Positions 51,368 to 59,245 of a stretch of DNA of 64,000 bases are shown one piece after another. The stretch lies in assembly GCA_018970725.1 (NCBI GenBank), contig JAGWVU010000020.1:1-64000 (forward strand), written 5' to 3'. The stretch comes from Verrucomicrobiota bacterium (GTDB taxonomy: Bacteria; Verrucomicrobiota; Verrucomicrobiia; Verrucomicrobiales; DEV007). The notes under the pieces are model-generated. The model was not told the DNA's origin, did not search any database, and saw only the letters and a list, made by a program, of their open reading frames with translations. The stretch's first letter is position 1, and every line of letters starts with the position of its first letter. A program made the position numbers and the translations under genes.

Positions 51368-54169
51368 TCAATCCAGATACATCAGCTCGTTCGCGTTGAG
51401 CAAGGCACGGCAGAGCGCCCGGAGACCGTGTTCCGAGACCAGCCGGCCCGCCGCCTCCCGTTCCGTCGCCGAGGGCTCGCGCTGGAAGGCGAGCCGATAG
51501 GCCGAGCCGACCGGATCCGCCCCGGCGACGCGCTCCGCCAAGGCCGCGGCCATGTCCCCCGTAAAGGAGTGATTCATCAGGGTCAGGGCCTGCAAAGGCG
51601 TGGTCGTGCTGGCCCGCTTCGGGGCCGCGAAGGCAATGTCCGGCAAATCAAAGTCATTGAGCACGTCGACCACGCTCGCCCTCGCGTTCTGGTGATAGAC
51701 GGCACGTCGATAGGTCTCCGGCCCATGGGCATCCAAAGGATAATAGCTGCTCACATTGTTCTGCATCACTTTGTATAACCGGAATCCGGGCCCTCCCATC
51801 GGCTCCAACCGCAGCTTCCCCGCCACACTCAACATCGTGTCCCGGATCTCCTCGGCGGCCAGGCGGCGCGGAGGAAAACGCCAGAGCAGGCGGGCGTCCT
51901 TGTCCACGCCGGCGCCATCCTCCCGATGATCCGCGCTCTGCCGGTAAACCCGGGACAAGAGAATCTCCCGATGCAACGCCTTCAACCTCCACCCATTGGC
52001 CAACAAGCGCCGCGCGAGGAAGTCGAGCAACTCCGGATGCGATGGCCGACCCCCGAGAAAGCCGAAGTCACCCGGGGTCTCCACGATGCCGGTGCCGAAG
52101 TGATACTGCCAAACCCGGTTGACGAGGACGCGCGCCGTCAGGGCATTCTCGGAGGAGGCGATCCAACGGGCCAGGGCGAGCCGGCGCTCCCCCTCCGGAG
52201 CCCGGGGATCCAGCGCATACGGCCTGATGCCCTGCTCCAACACGCTCAGACTGGCGGGAGCCACCACCGCAAGCGGCTTCATCGGATCACCTCCCTTGTG
52301 CACCTGGGTCGGCTCCGGGGGGTCCGCAAAATTCCCGGCCCAAACCATCGGCAAGGGAGGCACGCGATTCAACCGCCCCTGCCATTCGGCGATTTGCCGA
52401 TCCAGTTCCGCCAGTCTCAAGCTGTCTTCTTGAAGAATCACCCCGGGACGCACCCGCTCAATCCCGTGGGCCGGGGACCAAGGTTTCCGATCCTCCCCGG
52501 AGGCCACGCTCTTCCAACTCTTCCCATCCCGGGAAACCCGGACCTCATACTCACAGGGCGTGCCTCCCTGGGACTTGTCCTTCAGGTCCTTGCCCTTGAC
52601 GTTGCGAAAGACGATCCGGTCGATCACCTCCTCCTTCGCCAAAGTGATCGTGAGGACTGCCGGGGAACCGATGAACCATTGTTCCCCAGGCTCGCCATCG
52701 ATGCAGAATTGCGGGCCATAGGCGTCCGGAAAATCCTCCGCCACGGCACCTCGCGCGCCCTCCGCCTTCGCTCCAGCGGCGGCCAGCGCCACGTTCCGGT
52801 CCCCGCTCCAGACCTCGAATTCCGTGAGACGGCCCCCGCCTCTCAAGTCGGTCGCCGACTCAACCACGAACCGGACCTGCCGCGCCGCCACCGGCGCAAA
52901 ACGCTCCTCCGTCCCCACGGGATCGACCTTGGGCCTTGGAAAAACGCGCCGGGCCAGGACCTCGCGGGCGCGGCGTTCCAGCGCCCCGTTCAAAGCGTCC
53001 CGCTCCGCCGTCAGCTTGGCAATCCGCTCCCGCAAGGGCTTCGCGGCCGCCTCGTGGGACTGCCGCTGCTCTTTGGAGGCAAGGATCCGCCGGCCGTGCC
53101 GCACCCCCTCGAATGCCGCCCGGATCCGGTAGTAATCTTCCGTCGGGATCGGATCGAACTTGTGATTGTGGCAACGCGCACAGTTGATCGTCAGCCCTAG
53201 GAAAGCCCCGGACGTCGCCGTGATCATGTCGTCCAACGTCGCCGCACGGATGTTCTTCTGGGCCACCACGTCCTGGTTCCCCACATCGTCATACGGCCCC
53301 GCCACCAAAAACGAACTGCCGACCTCCACGTCCGGGTCGTCCTTGCCAATGACATCTCCGGCCAGATGCTCGATGATGAAACGGTCGAACGGTTTGTCCT
53401 CGTTGAAGGAGCGGATCACGTAGTCCCGGAAAGGCCAGAGATCATCGATGATGAAGTTCCGCTCGAATCCATTGCTTTCCCCGAACCGGACGACATCGAG
53501 CCAATGCCTTCCCCAATGCTCCCCATAGCGCGGGGAAGCGAGCAACCGGTCCACCAGCGCCGCCACCGCCCCGTCCCGGTCCGCTGCAAACGCCGCCACG
53601 AACGCCCCGGTCTCCGCCGCGGAGGGGGGCAGCCCGGTGAGATCATACGTCATCCGCCGGATCAAGGCGCGCGGATCCGCCGCCGGGTTCATCGCCAGCT
53701 TTTGCGCGGCCAGCTTTTCCTCAACGAACCCGTCGATCGATCCATGGGCGAACCCGCCGGCCAACGGTTGCAACGACCACCACGCCTTGTCCGCCCGTTT
53801 CGCCTCGATGACCGCCCCGTCGCGCGGGTCGGGCGCCCCCATCCGGATCCAGGTCACGAAATCCGCAATGACTGCTTCCGGTAGCTTCGGCTTGTTCGGC
53901 GGCATCTCCAAATCCGCCTCAAGATGACGCAGGGTCCTCACCAAAAGACTTTTCGCGGGATCACCGGGAACAATCACCGGTTCCCCGTGATCCCCGCCCT
54001 TCTCCCATCCCGCTTTGGAATCGAGATAGAGGTTTCCCTTGAGTTTTTTGGCCCCGGCGCTGTGACAGGCATAACAATGCTCCGCCAGGACGGGCCGGAT
54101 CTTCTCTTCAAAGAACGCGATGCCCGAAGGACCGGGGGTCGACGCCAGGATCAGGAGCAACGGGATCAT
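51368..54169 (-). CDS. PSCyt1/DUF1549/DUF1553 protein with discoidin-like insert
   Basis: The 933-residue protein has a short signal (MIPLLLILASTPG), PSCyt1 with HCYACHSAGAKK (Cys 32, 35, His 36), DUF1549 with a second CxxCH in NCARCHNHKFDPIPTEDYY, and DUF1553 at the C-terminus. The insert (about 415-535: RFAPVAARQVRFVVESATDL, TEFEVWSGDRNVALA, YEVRVSRDGKSWKSV) looks like an F5/8-type (discoidin) domain, unlike the golvesin-like insert of the other copy. Its ATG overlaps the DUF1501 stop codon by one base. Confidence 0.91.
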   Translation of the reverse strand: MIPLLLILASTPGPSGIAFFEEKIRPVLAEHCYACHSAGAKKLKGNLYLDSKAGWEKGGDHGEPVIVPGDPAKSLLVRTLRHLEADLEMPPNKPKLPEAVIADFVTWIRMGAPDPRDGAVIEAKRADKAWWSLQPLAGGFAHGSIDGFVEEKLAAQKLAMNPAADPRALIRRMTYDLTGLPPSAAETGAFVAAFAADRDGAVAALVDRLLASPRYGEHWGRHWLDVVRFGESNGFERNFIIDDLWPFRDYVIRSFNEDKPFDRFIIEHLAGDVIGKDDPDVEVGSSFLVAGPYDDVGNQDVVAQKNIRAATLDDMITATSGAFLGLTINCARCHNHKFDPIPTEDYYRIRAAFEGVRHGRRILASKEQRQSHEAAAKPLRERIAKLTAERDALNGALERRAREVLARRVFPRPKVDPVGTEERFAPVAARQVRFVVESATDLRGGGRLTEFEVWSGDRNVALAAAGAKAEGARGAVAEDFPDAYGPQFCIDGEPGEQWFIGSPAVLTITLAKEEVIDRIVFRNVKGKDLKDKSQGGTPCEYEVRVSRDGKSWKSVASGEDRKPWSPAHGIERVRPGVILQEDSLRLAELDRQIAEWQGRLNRVPPLPMVWAGNFADPPEPTQVHKGGDPMKPLAVVAPASLSVLEQGIRPYALDPRAPEGERRLALARWIASSENALTARVLVNRVWQYHFGTGIVETPGDFGFLGGRPSHPELLDFLARRLLANGWRLKALHREILLSRVYRQSADHREDGAGVDKDARLLWRFPPRRLAAEEIRDTMLSVAGKLRLEPMGGPGFRLYKVMQNNVSSYYPLDAHGPETYRRAVYHQNARASVVDVLNDFDLPDIAFAAPKRASTTTPLQALTLMNHSFTGDMAAALAERVAGADPVGSAYRLAFQREPSATEREAAGRLVSEHGLRALCRALLNANELMYLD

Positions 54170-55587
54170 CAGGTCAGGATGGGGTGCAGGGGATGCCCAT
54201 GGACATCCGTGAGACGCCGGTTGGCGCCGTTGTGATAGTAGGTCAGCTTCTCGTGATCCAACCCGAGCAGATGCAACACCGTGGCATGAAAATCATAGAC
54301 CGTGGCCACGTCCACCGCCGCCCTCCGGCCGAAGTCATCCGTGGCTCCGTGGCTCACCCCGCCCTTGACTCCGGCTCCCATCATCCACGTGGTGAAGGCA
54401 TCCGGATTGTGGTCACGGCCTGACGTTCCTTCCTGATGCGTCGGCATCCGCCCGAATTCGGTGCACCAAATCACCAGCACATCGCTCAACATGCCCCGTT
54501 GCTTCAGATCGGTGAGGAGCGCGGCCGTCGGTTGATCGAAGATCGGACCGTGCCGCTCGTAATCCGCCTTCAGCGTTTTGTGCGCGTCCCAATTGAGCAA
54601 GCCATCCACCGCGCTGGCCCTCGATGCACAATAAAGACTGACAAAGCGCACTCCCTGCTCCAAAAGCCGCCGCGCCAACAGACAATTTCGCGCGTAGGCC
54701 GCCTTGAGCTTGTTGCCGTCGTTCAGGCCGTAAAAATCGTGCATCCATCCCGGTTCCTTCGCCAGATCGCTCACTTCCGGCGCGGTCATCTGCATCCGCG
54801 CGGCCAGTTCGTAGGCCGCCATCCGCGCCCGCAATTCCTCGTTTCCGGGGCGCCGGCTCGCATGCTCTTCGTCGATCCTCTGGAGAAAACCGCGGGTGGC
54901 CCGTTCCTCGTCCTCGCCAATGCCCTCCGGCCGGCGCAGATTGCGCAACGGCTGCTGCGCCGACATCGTGATCCCTTGGAAGCGGGCCGGGAGAAAGCCG
55001 TTGCTCCAATTCGCCTTCCCGTTCGGCGGCTCCCCGCGGAGATCTTGGATCGCCACGTAAGTGGGCAGGTTCTCGTTCAGCGTGCCCAGTCCGTAACTGA
55101 CCCAGGCCCCGGCACTCGGAAAGCCATCCCGCGTGAAACAGGAATTCATGTTCACGCAGCCCGGGCCATGGGTGTTGGTCCGCGAGGTCATCGAGTGGAT
55201 GAACGCCATGTCGTCCACGTGACCGGCCATGTGGGGCAACAGGGTGGAGATCATCTTGCCGCTCTTCCCCGCCGGCGCGAAGGGCCAGGGCGACTTCATG
55301 AGATTCCCGTTTTTCCCTTGGAACGTCACCTCCGTCTGTCCACCCGGCAGCGGCGTGCCATGATACCTGTCCAACTGCGGCTTGTGATCCCAGAGATCAA
55401 TGTGCGATGCCGCGCCCGGGCAGAAAATCTGCAGGACCTGCTTCGCCTTGGGCGCAAAATGCGGTTGCAGCCCCCCGGCCGCGGACAGCTCACCCGCCAA
55501 CAACCGTGAAAGGGCCACCCCGGTCATTCCACTGCTCATGCGCCCGAGAAACTCGCGGCGGGTCGAATCGAGGGGAAGGAGGCTCAT
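54169..55587 (-). CDS. DUF1501 protein, first gene of the GMC operon
   Basis: The 472-residue protein has a Tat-type signal (STRREFLGRMSSGMTGVALS) and the DUF1501 landmarks QIFCPGAASHIDLWDHKP, WDAHKTLKADYERHG, WCTEFGRMPTHQEG and GRDHNPDAFTTWMMGAG. ATG at 55587 follows a GGAG ribosome site. The next gene begins at TGATG, so the two are coupled. The order (DUF1501 first) is the reverse of the pair at 34310-38527. Confidence 0.92.
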   Translation of the reverse strand: MSLLPLDSTRREFLGRMSSGMTGVALSRLLAGELSAAGGLQPHFAPKAKQVLQIFCPGAASHIDLWDHKPQLDRYHGTPLPGGQTEVTFQGKNGNLMKSPWPFAPAGKSGKMISTLLPHMAGHVDDMAFIHSMTSRTNTHGPGCVNMNSCFTRDGFPSAGAWVSYGLGTLNENLPTYVAIQDLRGEPPNGKANWSNGFLPARFQGITMSAQQPLRNLRRPEGIGEDEERATRGFLQRIDEEHASRRPGNEELRARMAAYELAARMQMTAPEVSDLAKEPGWMHDFYGLNDGNKLKAAYARNCLLARRLLEQGVRFVSLYCASRASAVDGLLNWDAHKTLKADYERHGPIFDQPTAALLTDLKQRGMLSDVLVIWCTEFGRMPTHQEGTSGRDHNPDAFTTWMMGAGVKGGVSHGATDDFGRRAAVDVATVYDFHATVLHLLGLDHEKLTYYHNGANRRLTDVHGHPLHPILT

Positions 55588-55777
55588 AAAGCTCCACACC
55601 GCTCCGGGCCCGCCCTCCTTTCACCCCCGCCCCGAATCCCGGGAAAATCCAAGCCCCGGGCCCCAGCCCGGCTATGGGGAGAGCGGAGAAGCGGAGCCAT
55701 TCCTGGCGTTTTTCCATTGAGTTCCGCAGCTGAAGGGCGTTAAAGAAGTTTCCGCGGGGCGTTCCGGAAGTCATCCC

Positions 55778-57397
55778 ATGAAAACCTTCCAATTCATCCT
55801 TCTTGCGTGGATCGCCGGAGCGCAGGGCCTTCGCGCCGATCCCATGATTTCCTCGTGGTTCACCCGGAACTCGGGGACCCATGCCCGCGTCATTCAGACG
55901 ACCAGCACCACCACCGGCACGCAGAACACGACGCCCGTGACGACCTGGCCCACGGCGGGCCTCCCCAACAACAACACAGGCGGGCTCGCCCAAACCGTTC
56001 CCGCCTACGCCGACGTCCTGCGCGTGCGCCACGACGCCGATTGGGTCTATGTGAACGCCAGCGGGCTCGCCTCCCACACCATGGGCCCCTTTCTCACCAA
56101 GCAGCCCGGAGCCTTGTTCGGCTTCTGGCCGGTGGCCCAGAACTACCTTGCCAAGCTGCCGCGCAACCCCGGGACGCCCCCGGTAAACAAGACGACCCAC
56201 GGCGGCGGTCTGATCGGGTTGATGGTCAACGGCGTGGGAATTTATGATCTGGGCGACGCGTTCGGGTTTGTCCAGACCGCTTCCTCTCCGGTGACGGGCA
56301 GCGACGCGATGGGCAACACCAACGCGACGCACCCTTGGTGGCGGGATGCCCTCTCGGTGGAAGTGGTGACGTTCGATCCCGGCTTTGCCCACCAACCCGG
56401 CATCAACGGCCAGTATCATTACCACGCGGAACCCAAGGCACTCAGATACCAATTGGGCGACAACATGCAGGCGATCTACGACGCGACCAATCACACCTAC
56501 AGCTACATCGAGGACACCTCCAACCTGCACCACTCCCCCATCCTCGGCTGGAGTTTTGACGGCTACCCCATCTATGGCCCCTACGGCTATTCCTCGCCCC
56601 TGAATTCCGCCAGCACGGTCACCCGCATGCGCAGCGGATTTGTCCTGCGGGACGGCGGCAACGGCACGACCAACCTCAGGTCGAACGGCCGCACCACGCT
56701 CCCGAAGTGGGCCGCCATCGCCGAAGGATTCGCGACGCCCGCCAACTACGCTTCCCAGACGTTGAGCAACGGGGACTATGTTCTTGCCTCCGCCACGCTC
56801 CACGGTCCGGCCACGACCTATACCACCACCGGCCCGCAGGGCGCGACCTACTCGCTCGGCCGCTACATCGGCGACTACGACTTTCTCGGCGACCGCGGCA
56901 AAAACCAGGGCACGGACTTCGACCTTGATGTCTACAACGGCCGCACCTGCGTGACCCCGGAGTTTCCGGGCGGCACCTACGCCTACTTCGTGAGCCTCGA
57001 CGCCACGGGCAATCCCGCCTTCCCCTACATGCTCGGCAAACAGTATTACGGCACCAAGACCGGCACCACCACCGGGGTGACCGTGCCCGCAACGGGCGTG
57101 ACCGAATCCTTCAACAGCACAACGGTCACGGAAACCTGGCTGGGCGATCCGGTGGTGACCTCTTCCAATGGCAATGTCACCCTGACTTGGAGCGCCCTCG
57201 AAGGAGGCACCTACAAGGTCGAGTCATCGGCGGATCTCTCCACCTGGAACACTTTGCAAAGCGCCGTTCCCGGCCCCAACAACACCGCCCTGCCGGCACC
57301 CGCCAGCGTGATCACCACGACCTCCTTCACGGACAGCGGAGCTGCGGTGCCCGAAACCAACCCGAGGCGGTTCTACCGGGTGAAACGCAACCCGTGA
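55778..57397 (+). CDS. Secreted YHYH-domain protein
   Basis: The 539-residue protein has a signal peptide (MKTFQFILLAWIAGAQGLRA) and a YHYH domain: THGGGLIGLMVNGVGIYDLG, GQYHYHAEPKALRY (YHYH at 213-216), HSPILGWSFDGYPIYGPYGY and DLDVYNGRTCVTPEFPGGTY. YHYH proteins are exported and uncharacterised; the clustered His suggest metal binding. A C-terminal WSALEGGTYKVESSADLSTW segment is a Verrucomicrobial tail repeat type. The MbnP-MbnH fusion gene follows 93 bp later on the same strand. Confidence 0.88.
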   Translation: MKTFQFILLAWIAGAQGLRADPMISSWFTRNSGTHARVIQTTSTTTGTQNTTPVTTWPTAGLPNNNTGGLAQTVPAYADVLRVRHDADWVYVNASGLASHTMGPFLTKQPGALFGFWPVAQNYLAKLPRNPGTPPVNKTTHGGGLIGLMVNGVGIYDLGDAFGFVQTASSPVTGSDAMGNTNATHPWWRDALSVEVVTFDPGFAHQPGINGQYHYHAEPKALRYQLGDNMQAIYDATNHTYSYIEDTSNLHHSPILGWSFDGYPIYGPYGYSSPLNSASTVTRMRSGFVLRDGGNGTTNLRSNGRTTLPKWAAIAEGFATPANYASQTLSNGDYVLASATLHGPATTYTTTGPQGATYSLGRYIGDYDFLGDRGKNQGTDFDLDVYNGRTCVTPEFPGGTYAYFVSLDATGNPAFPYMLGKQYYGTKTGTTTGVTVPATGVTESFNSTTVTETWLGDPVVTSSNGNVTLTWSALEGGTYKVESSADLSTWNTLQSAVPGPNNTALPAPASVITTTSFTDSGAAVPETNPRRFYRVKRNP

Positions 57398-57490
57398 CCA
57401 TGGGCCGCCACTCACGCGGAGGAGGAATCCCACGGTTTGATCGGGTTTCGCGTTTCGGTCGGACGCGATAGGATCGACCCATCCGGTTCC

Positions 57491-59245
57491 ATGAACATCA
57501 AAATCCGCCAGCTCCCCCGCCTTGCCGCGATGTCGAGCGCACTGCTGCTCATGGCGGGCCATGCCGTTCCCGGAGCCACGCTTGAGGTCGTGGTCCGGCA
57601 TTCGTTCAACGGCGCACCCCTGCTGCTGGATTCCCTGCGTTATCGGAACGCCGCCGGCGAAACGCTGTCGGTCACCCGCTTGAGCTATCTCCTGAGCGGC
57701 TTTGCGGTGGAACGCGAAGATGGGACCTGGTTGGAGATTCCGGACCAATACGCCTGGATGGATGCGGCCCGGGGTCGCACGCACGCGCGCCTGCCCGGGA
57801 TTCCGGGGGCAAACTACCGGGCCCTGCGGTTCCACATCGGCCCGGATCCCGCCGGCAACGCCGCCGATCCCGCCCGGTTCGCGGCGGATCATCCCCTCAA
57901 CGCCAACCTCAATGGCCTGCACTGGGGTTGGCAGGGCGGCTACATTTTCCTCGCCCTCGAGGGCCGTTATGCGACGGACCCCACGGACCTGAAGGGCTAC
58001 GCGCACCATCTGGCCCGGGATCCCAACCGCACCCGCGTCTCGCTCGCCGCGCCCCTCGATCTGACCCAAGATGCCACCGCGTGGCTGGACTTCGATTTAG
58101 GCACACTCGGCAACGCGCCACGGCCCGTCTCCTTCGGGAGAGACGGTGCCGCGACCCATTCGCGCGGGGGGGATCCCGTTGCCGCCGCATTGGTCGCGAA
58201 TCTTCCGGGCTCCTTCCGGGTGATGCAAGTGGTCTCCACCATCCCGGCACTGAGCCGGCCCTCACCGCTCAAGCCGATCGACCTCCCGGAAACCTACACT
58301 CCGTATCGCTTCACGATGAGCGGATCCTTTCCCCTGCCCGACCTGCCACGCGACAACCCGTTGATCGAGGAAAGGATCGCCCTCGGCAAGGTGCTCTTCC
58401 ACGAAACCTCCCTTTCGCGGGACGGGATGCTCTCCTGCGCCTCCTGCCACCTCGAAACCCACGCGATGGCAGATCCCCGCCGTTACAGCATCGGCGTCCG
58501 CGGTCAGACCGGCACACGCAACGCCATGCCGCTGTTCAACCTCGCGTGGAAGAACAGCTTCTTTTGGGACGGCCGCGCCACGTCGCTCCGCAGCCAGGCC
58601 CTGATGCCGATTCAGGATCACACGGAGATGGATGAAACCCTCGAACGGGTCACGACCCGTCTGGCGGCGACCCGGGACTATCCCCGGCTCTTCACCGCCG
58701 CTTTCGGTTCCAGCGATATCACGGCGGCCCGTCTCGGCCTTGCGCTGGAGCAATATCTCCTCACGCTCACTTCCTATCAATCCCGCTTCGACCGCGCCCT
58801 GAAGGGGGAGAAGATCCTCGACGAAGCGGAGAGACGGGGGTTCGAACTCTTCATGACGGAGTATGATCCGCGCACCGGTCAGCGCGGAGCCGATTGCTTC
58901 CATTGCCACGGAGGCCCGCTGTTCACCGACCACCGGTTTCATAACAACGGCCTGGCCCCGGACGATGCCGACCCGGGTCGGTTCCGCGTCACCGGCAACG
59001 AAGCGGACCGCCACAAGTTTGCCAGCCCCAGCCTGCGAAACGTCTCACGCACCGCGCCCTACATGCACGACGGACGCTTCGCCACGCTGGAGGAAGTCAT
59101 CGCCCACTACAGCGGCGGCGTGCATCGCAGCCCGACACTGGATCCGAATCTGGCGAAGCACCCCGCGGGTGGCCTGCAACTCGGCATCGAGGATCAACGG
59201 GCGCTGGTCGCCTTTCTCAAAACGCTGGCGGAAGATGAGCCCTGA
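57491..59245 (+). CDS. MbnP-like copper-binding domain fused to MbnH/MauG-like di-heme cytochrome peroxidase
   Basis: The 584-residue protein has a signal peptide (about 1-29), an MbnP-like beta domain (30-245) with VTRLSYLLSGFAV, YRALRFHIGPDPAGN and LNGLHWGWQGGYIFLALEG (Trp 145 and 147), and a C-terminal di-heme peroxidase domain (270-580). Heme sites are CASCH (316-320) and CFHCH (469-473), with NLAWKNSFFWDGRA and RTAPYMHDGRF as family landmarks. In methanotrophs MbnH is known to oxidise a Trp of the separate protein MbnP, forming a copper site. Here both are one chain in the periplasm. Start ATG 57491. No methanobactin genes are near. Confidence 0.85.
   Translation: MNIKIRQLPRLAAMSSALLLMAGHAVPGATLEVVVRHSFNGAPLLLDSLRYRNAAGETLSVTRLSYLLSGFAVEREDGTWLEIPDQYAWMDAARGRTHARLPGIPGANYRALRFHIGPDPAGNAADPARFAADHPLNANLNGLHWGWQGGYIFLALEGRYATDPTDLKGYAHHLARDPNRTRVSLAAPLDLTQDATAWLDFDLGTLGNAPRPVSFGRDGAATHSRGGDPVAAALVANLPGSFRVMQVVSTIPALSRPSPLKPIDLPETYTPYRFTMSGSFPLPDLPRDNPLIEERIALGKVLFHETSLSRDGMLSCASCHLETHAMADPRRYSIGVRGQTGTRNAMPLFNLAWKNSFFWDGRATSLRSQALMPIQDHTEMDETLERVTTRLAATRDYPRLFTAAFGSSDITAARLGLALEQYLLTLTSYQSRFDRALKGEKILDEAERRGFELFMTEYDPRTGQRGADCFHCHGGPLFTDHRFHNNGLAPDDADPGRFRVTGNEADRHKFASPSLRNVSRTAPYMHDGRFATLEEVIAHYSGGVHRSPTLDPNLAKHPAGGLQLGIEDQRALVAFLKTLAEDEP

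Follow-up and report, generated by a model that had tools for sequence, protein, structure and literature searches.

An exported MbnP-MbnH fusion protein of Verrucomicrobiota: a candidate self-maturing copper protein linked to secreted YHYH or galactose-oxidase-type neighbours

Organization of the locus

The window analysed in this work is a stretch of 64,000 nucleotides from a Verrucomicrobiota bacterium, and all positions are counted from its first letter. The gene at 57491-59245 on the forward strand encodes one exported chain of 584 amino acid residues that carries both an MbnP domain and an MbnH domain. The frame is uninterrupted from ATG to TGA, with no stop codon in the linker, and the fusion is real: its two halves match the Pfam families PF20243 and PF03150, and its structural model matches the MbnP structure 7l6g and the MbnH structure 6e1c. 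An in-frame TTG is located upstream at 57437 and would give an alternative product of 602 residues, so the exact start codon is unproven.

The chain begins with an export signal of approximately residues 1-28 (57491-57574), consisting of a basic N-terminus and a hydrophobic stretch that forms a helix at residues 8-23 in the model; the position of its cleavage is a prediction. It is followed by the MbnP domain (residues 30-247, 57578-58231), a Pro-rich linker of approximately residues 248-281 (58232-58333) with low pLDDT at residues 252-258, and the di-haem MbnH/MauG-like domain (residues 282-582, 58334-59236). The AlphaFold2 model was built from 23 fusions and has a mean pLDDT of 80 and a pTM of 0.73. 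An earlier note, made from the letters alone, had described a single exported 584-residue chain with these two domains. The open frame and the Pfam and fold matches bear this out, and the motifs named there are present: HWGWQGGY at residues 144-151, with W145 and W147 numbered as in the note, CASCH at 316-320 and CFHCH at 469-473. The loss of a stop codon in the linker through a sequencing error is excluded, because the same single-chain layout recurs in dozens of genomes.

A scan of the whole genome found this fusion as its sole MbnP gene. A profile search of the genome for mbnB (TIGR04159) gave no match, in agreement with the earlier proposal that the fusion occurs without methanobactin genes.

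The gene of a secreted YHYH-domain protein of 539 residues, the likely partner of the fusion in view of a conserved linkage, is located at 55778-57397 on the same strand, 93 bp upstream of the fusion. It matches PF14240 with 113.7 bits (cut-off 25, E 1.4e-32), and no terminator-like site was found on the forward strand between the two genes. Upstream of the YHYH gene, the section 51368-55599 of the reverse strand encodes a DUF1553/DUF1549 cytochrome protein and a DUF1501 protein.

The MbnP domain

The N-terminal half is recognised by the MbnP profile, as the reading in the earlier note demanded: PF20243 covers residues 30-206 with 94.9 bits against a cut-off of 27 (E 7.2e-27). The MbnP equivalog model TIGR04052, which is built around a WxW motif and four Cys residues, gives only 25.2 bits and stays under its cut-off of 140. 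The canonical MbnP is a "four-Cys" protein, while the MbnP half of the fusion has no Cys at all, the first Cys of the chain being residue 316. Comparison of model residues 27-247 with MbnP 7l6g by VIA-align gave a Z of 18.4 with 207 residues aligned at 3.1 Å; the remaining rows restricted to this half have Z of at most 5.3. The sequence search found no usable solved relative of the MbnP half.

The conservation of individual residues was counted in an alignment of 45 fused and 55 separate MbnP sequences. The motif H144-W145-G146-W147 (57920-57931) contains W145, the first Trp of WxW, which is present in all 45 fusions and in 50 of the 55 separate proteins. W147 is less constant (43/45 and 40/55, respectively), with Pro or Val in its place; the fusions of loci L057 (genome G320) and L071 have WxP and keep the first Trp. 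In L088 and other flavobacterial MbnP-like proteins the motif is W-x-V, where the first Trp is also retained. Since W145 is invariant and W147 variable, W145 is likely to be the kynurenine precursor in the fusion. Of the two targets suggested in the earlier note, W145 is therefore retained, while W147 is weakened by its replacement in relatives. In the MbnP of Methylosinus trichosporium OB3b, the first Trp of WxW is said to have been found by Manesis et al. in 2021 to become kynurenine, and the conservation of W145 fits this pattern.

The copper ligands of the fusion may be looked for among its His residues. H173 (58007-58009) is His in 45/45 fused and 53/55 separate sequences and is a probable copper ligand. 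H144, adjacent to the target Trp, is His in 44 of the 45 fusions; H134 (57890-57892) is near-invariant (43/45), and H223 of a THS motif (58157-58159) is invariant (45/45). These four conserved residues are the candidates for a site of kynurenine and two His of the kind present in MopE/CorA. At position 143, two residues ahead of the target Trp, 41/45 fusions have Leu, while 29 of the 55 separate MbnP proteins have Met. If this Met is a ligand in OB3b MbnP, the copper site of the fusion differs from it and would be more His-rich, perhaps nearer to that of MopE.

The di-haem domain

The C-terminal half was likewise confirmed by profile. PF03150 (CCP_MauG) covers residues 294-441 with 180 bits (cut-off 25.6, E 4.8e-53), and among the NCBIfam models TIGR04039 ("MbnH family di-heme enzyme") scores best, with 214 bits, under its cut-off of 363. 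Both halves thus pass the Pfam cut-offs and miss the NCBIfam equivalog cut-offs, which places them in the broad families on a divergent branch. Model residues 271-584 align with MbnH 6e1c with a Z of 30.2 over 300 residues at 2.2 Å (VIA-align).

The haem-binding motif CASCH is encoded at 58436-58450, and both its Cys residues and its His are invariant in 23 aligned fusions. The second motif, CFHCH (58895-58909), is also invariant in these sequences, as is Y540 (59108-59110). Its counterpart is a Tyr both in 6e1c (phmmer) and in MauG (alignment with MauG/MbnH). By alignment Y540 is at the axial-ligand position of the MauG/MbnH Tyr, and it is a putative ligand. W359, Q369 and E379 are invariant in the 23 fusions together with Y540 and both CXXCH motifs, and all line up with 6e1c and with MauG/MbnH. 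The MauG/MbnH-type set of residues is present in the haem half of the window's protein.

Distribution and origin of the fusion

PF20243 was found in 22 of 388 Verrucomicrobiota genomes, with 27 match rows, and 24 of these rows belong to frames that continue from one domain into the other. The remaining rows come from genomes G121 (one row) and G108 (two rows). In G121 (locus L058) transposase-like sequence follows a short MbnP frame, and in G108 (L059) a fusion is broken by frame changes; both are probably decayed MbnPH loci. Additional loci were obtained by scanning genome contigs with peptide patterns of the haem domain, a scan not steered by neighbour genes, and the fused examples with a recorded lineage belong to Verrucomicrobiota. 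In all, 48 distinct fused loci were found, and the loci come mostly from MAGs. The count of genomes proposed in the earlier note thus makes the MbnP-MbnH fusion the rule among MbnP-bearing Verrucomicrobiota and not a one-off.

The situation differs in other phyla. PF20243 is present in 67 of 247 Bacteroidota genomes, and no fusion was found among their approximately 90 MbnP frames. In Sumerlaeota it is present in 3 of 40 genomes, with mbnP and mbnH as separate, adjacent genes. Three candidates were rejected. An apparent triple fusion MbnP-MbnH-YHYH in L078 arises because the assembly joins two genes through a stretch of N. A supposed fused MbnP in Bacteroidota genome G622 (a 517-aa frame) has non-homologous upstream sequence and a separate MbnH. 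The "Phycisphaerales" MAG L099 was discarded as a Planctomycete case, since the phylum sample obtained for its genome was identical to that of a Bacteroidota genome. Triplets of one MbnP gene followed by two MbnH-like genes occur in L091, L097-L104, L107, L112, L118 and L135, mostly in Bacteroidota.

In the tree of each half, two state changes account for the fused rows, and 0 of 500 shuffles gave a number as low. A topology that unites every fused row in a single clade is not rejected by the AU test (p 0.46), and one split Sumerlaeota pair is placed among the fused rows with weak support. The two state changes and the AU value indicate that a single origin of the fusion is possible, although not proven.

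Secreted neighbours of the fusion

The gene context was absent from the earlier note. The neighbours were surveyed with simple longest-frame gene calls and with profiles built for this analysis. A YHYH gene was found within 4 kb in 26 of the 48 fused loci, and in two of the loci surveyed (L035:6261-9551 and L057:9304-12444) the YHYH domain is fused to a sulfatase (PF00884) upstream of the MbnPH fusion. At the level of whole genomes, PF14240 is present in 22/22 of those with PF20243 and in 48/388 overall (hypergeometric 6e-23, a value that ignores kinship and is to be read only as "strong"). In all three MbnP-bearing Sumerlaeota genomes the YHYH gene is directly upstream, in the order YHYH-mbnP-mbnH. 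The Bacteroidota pairs have neither YHYH nor galactose oxidase in the flanks read, and there phylum and fusion are confounded. The Sumerlaeota loci, being unfused yet YHYH-linked, break this confounding in part and indicate that YHYH is linked with MbnPH as such and not with the fusion.

In another 11 of the 48 loci, different from the 26 with YHYH, the fusion gene is followed at 108-252 bp, on the same strand, by the gene of a giant galactose-oxidase protein. Its N-terminal part matches galactose oxidase 9g8h with E 6.7e-81, and the five residues of the copper/radical site (Cys, Tyr, Tyr-His, His) are retained in 11/11 giants. The conservation of these residues makes the giant a copper enzyme by sequence, and its galactose-oxidase domain a putative copper radical oxidase. 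The giants (L040:11089-18000 and those of L044, L050, L053-L056, L072-L074 and L079) consist of the galactose-oxidase domain, PA14/lectin/CBM/Ig-like modules and a C-terminal MauG-like module with two CXXCH motifs, all in one chain. In the ten long giants the two motifs are approximately 125-130 residues apart, and a partial match to MauG was obtained in those scanned.

One or the other partner is therefore linked in 37 of the 48 fused loci, a count that ignores shared ancestry. Neither is found in the remaining 11, four of which have less than 1 kb of upstream sequence and at least six ample flanks. The two contexts are split between subfamilies, YHYH occurring in that of the window and galactose oxidase in its sister subfamily. 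This split needs one change on the tree of the haem domain and four on the MbnP tree, and the galactose-oxidase context may be traceable to one event.

Other genes recur near the fusions. A pair of a histidine kinase and an OmpR-type response regulator (clusters c1/c2) is located beside them in 12 loci (L037:3403-5717 and 11 others) and could be a copper-responsive two-component system; no such pair is found beside the fusion gene of the window. A DUF7133/HEAT protein is encoded near some fusions (L048:10450-14652 and L052:11006-14179), with a C-terminal cupredoxin-like domain in L048.

The YHYH proteins of the fused loci have four invariant His residues, H205, H214, H216 and H252, and several invariant Asp and Tyr residues. 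The only published suggestion on YHYH in the literature searched is that of a survey of jumbo phages, which predicted a Zn2+ site of a His triad and Asp and a hydrolase role (PMC7824862). The parallel with the linked galactose oxidase suggests that YHYH may bind copper and not Zn2+. Its model has a pLDDT of 75, and with this model no convincing fold match was obtained for the core: Foldseek gave no match below E 0.36, and the VIA-align rows are mostly Fn3-like, with Z up to 7.6, and span only residues ~449-539. The sequence search gave no usable solved relative, and no YHYH match was found on plasmids.

Proposed function

The location of the fusion beside YHYH or a copper oxidase suggests a supply of copper to these neighbours. 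On balance we favour the proposal of a self-maturing copper protein, exported as a single chain, whose client is the secreted oxidase or YHYH protein encoded beside it. According to its motifs, the fusion would be exported and its haems attached by the c-type machinery. The di-haem domain would then activate H2O2, or O2 plus electrons, in the manner of MauG/MbnH, and oxidise W145 to kynurenine in the same or a sister molecule, by analogy with OB3b MbnPH and MopE/CorA. This would complete a site for Cu(I) in the MbnP domain, to which H173 and probably H144 would contribute as ligands. Once loaded, the domain could finally donate copper to the secreted neighbour, a step suggested by the gene linkage; the client would be the YHYH protein in the subfamily of the window and, in its sister subfamily, the copper radical oxidase of galactose-oxidase type. 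The invariance of W145 together with the haem residues is as expected of a substrate and its enzyme.

A wider proposal can be put forward only tentatively. YHYH may constitute an unrecognised class of secreted copper enzymes. MbnPH, as one chain in Verrucomicrobiota and as two in Sumerlaeota, would be the builder of their copper site, or its donor, dedicated to this task; it would make its own kynurenine in cis and hand copper on to YHYH or a galactose-oxidase-type enzyme.

It is also conceivable, but unlikely, that the haem domain acts on the YHYH or galactose-oxidase partner, for example by an oxidative crosslink. The MbnP domain would then be a docking or copper-donating module, and self-modification of W145 secondary or absent. 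The linkage of a partner in 37/48 loci is consistent with this, MauG-type enzymes do work on partner proteins, and galactose oxidase requires an oxidative Cys-Tyr crosslink. However, galactose oxidase makes this crosslink itself with copper and O2, the linked giants have two CXXCH motifs of their own, and the conservation of W145 along with the haem residues is what a substrate and its enzyme would show.

We consider it improbable that the protein removes H2O2 as a di-haem cytochrome c peroxidase, with the MbnP-fold domain as a mere adaptor and neither kynurenine nor copper. PF03150 spans both peroxidases and MauG, and peroxidases account for many of the fold-search rows, with Z 25-27; the nearest structure and the best NCBIfam match are nevertheless MbnH, a Tyr is found at the MauG/MbnH position, and WxW has its first Trp conserved throughout. 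Least probable is a role in copper sequestration or sensing, in which a self-made Cu(I) site would buffer extracytoplasmic copper in connection with the two-component systems of several loci, with no delivery to neighbours: the 12 loci with a kinase/regulator pair and the copper-repressible surface proteins CorA and MopE (PMC3912023) are in its favour, but the constant companions of the fusion are secreted enzymes or enzyme-like proteins and not copper exporters, and the window's gene has no adjoining kinase pair.

The main value of the preferred reading, a self-maturing copper protein that serves its neighbour, is a testable client hypothesis for MbnP/MbnH pairs outside methanobactin producers, with the copper enzyme of galactose-oxidase type or the YHYH protein beside a clade-wide fusion as the client. 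As enzyme and substrate come as one chain, the test system is an easy one. It also places the uncharacterised YHYH family in a testable copper context. The occurrence of such pairs away from methanobactin genes is not new (PMC3621798), and MbnPH-like genes have been found in copper operons (PMC9426467). The fusion and its links with YHYH and galactose oxidase are not mentioned in the open-access literature searched.

Comparison with known systems

It is useful to compare the fusion with the OB3b MbnPH pair (7l6g, 6e1c). Both systems have the two folds, the WxW target motif, export, a di-haem enzyme with the same Tyr, and a conserved His equivalent to H173. The OB3b system consists of two proteins, while the fusion is one chain and occurs outside any methanobactin cluster. 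It also differs in having Leu instead of Met at the second position ahead of the target Trp, in the His next to that Trp, in the absence of Cys from its MbnP half, and in scoring under both equivalog cut-offs.

The separate pairs of Bacteroidota and Sumerlaeota are the closest relatives in sequence and share the order mbnP then mbnH. Those of Sumerlaeota also share the upstream YHYH gene, although their genes are separate; those of Bacteroidota are separate and have neither neighbour within the flanks read.

PMC3912023 and PMC3423442 describe for MopE/SACCP and CorA/CorB a Trp-derived kynurenine in the copper site and a MauG-like di-haem protein alongside, and in PMC3423442 the MopE site is given as two His and kynurenine. 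The MopE and CorA sequences have no marked similarity to MbnP (PMC3621798), and these systems differ from the fusion in consisting of separate proteins of methanotrophs, which are secreted or located at the surface and are repressible by copper. MauG, acting on methylamine dehydrogenase, is likewise a di-haem enzyme that oxidises Trp of a protein substrate; there, however, the Trp belongs to a separate protein, and TTQ is formed instead of kynurenine.
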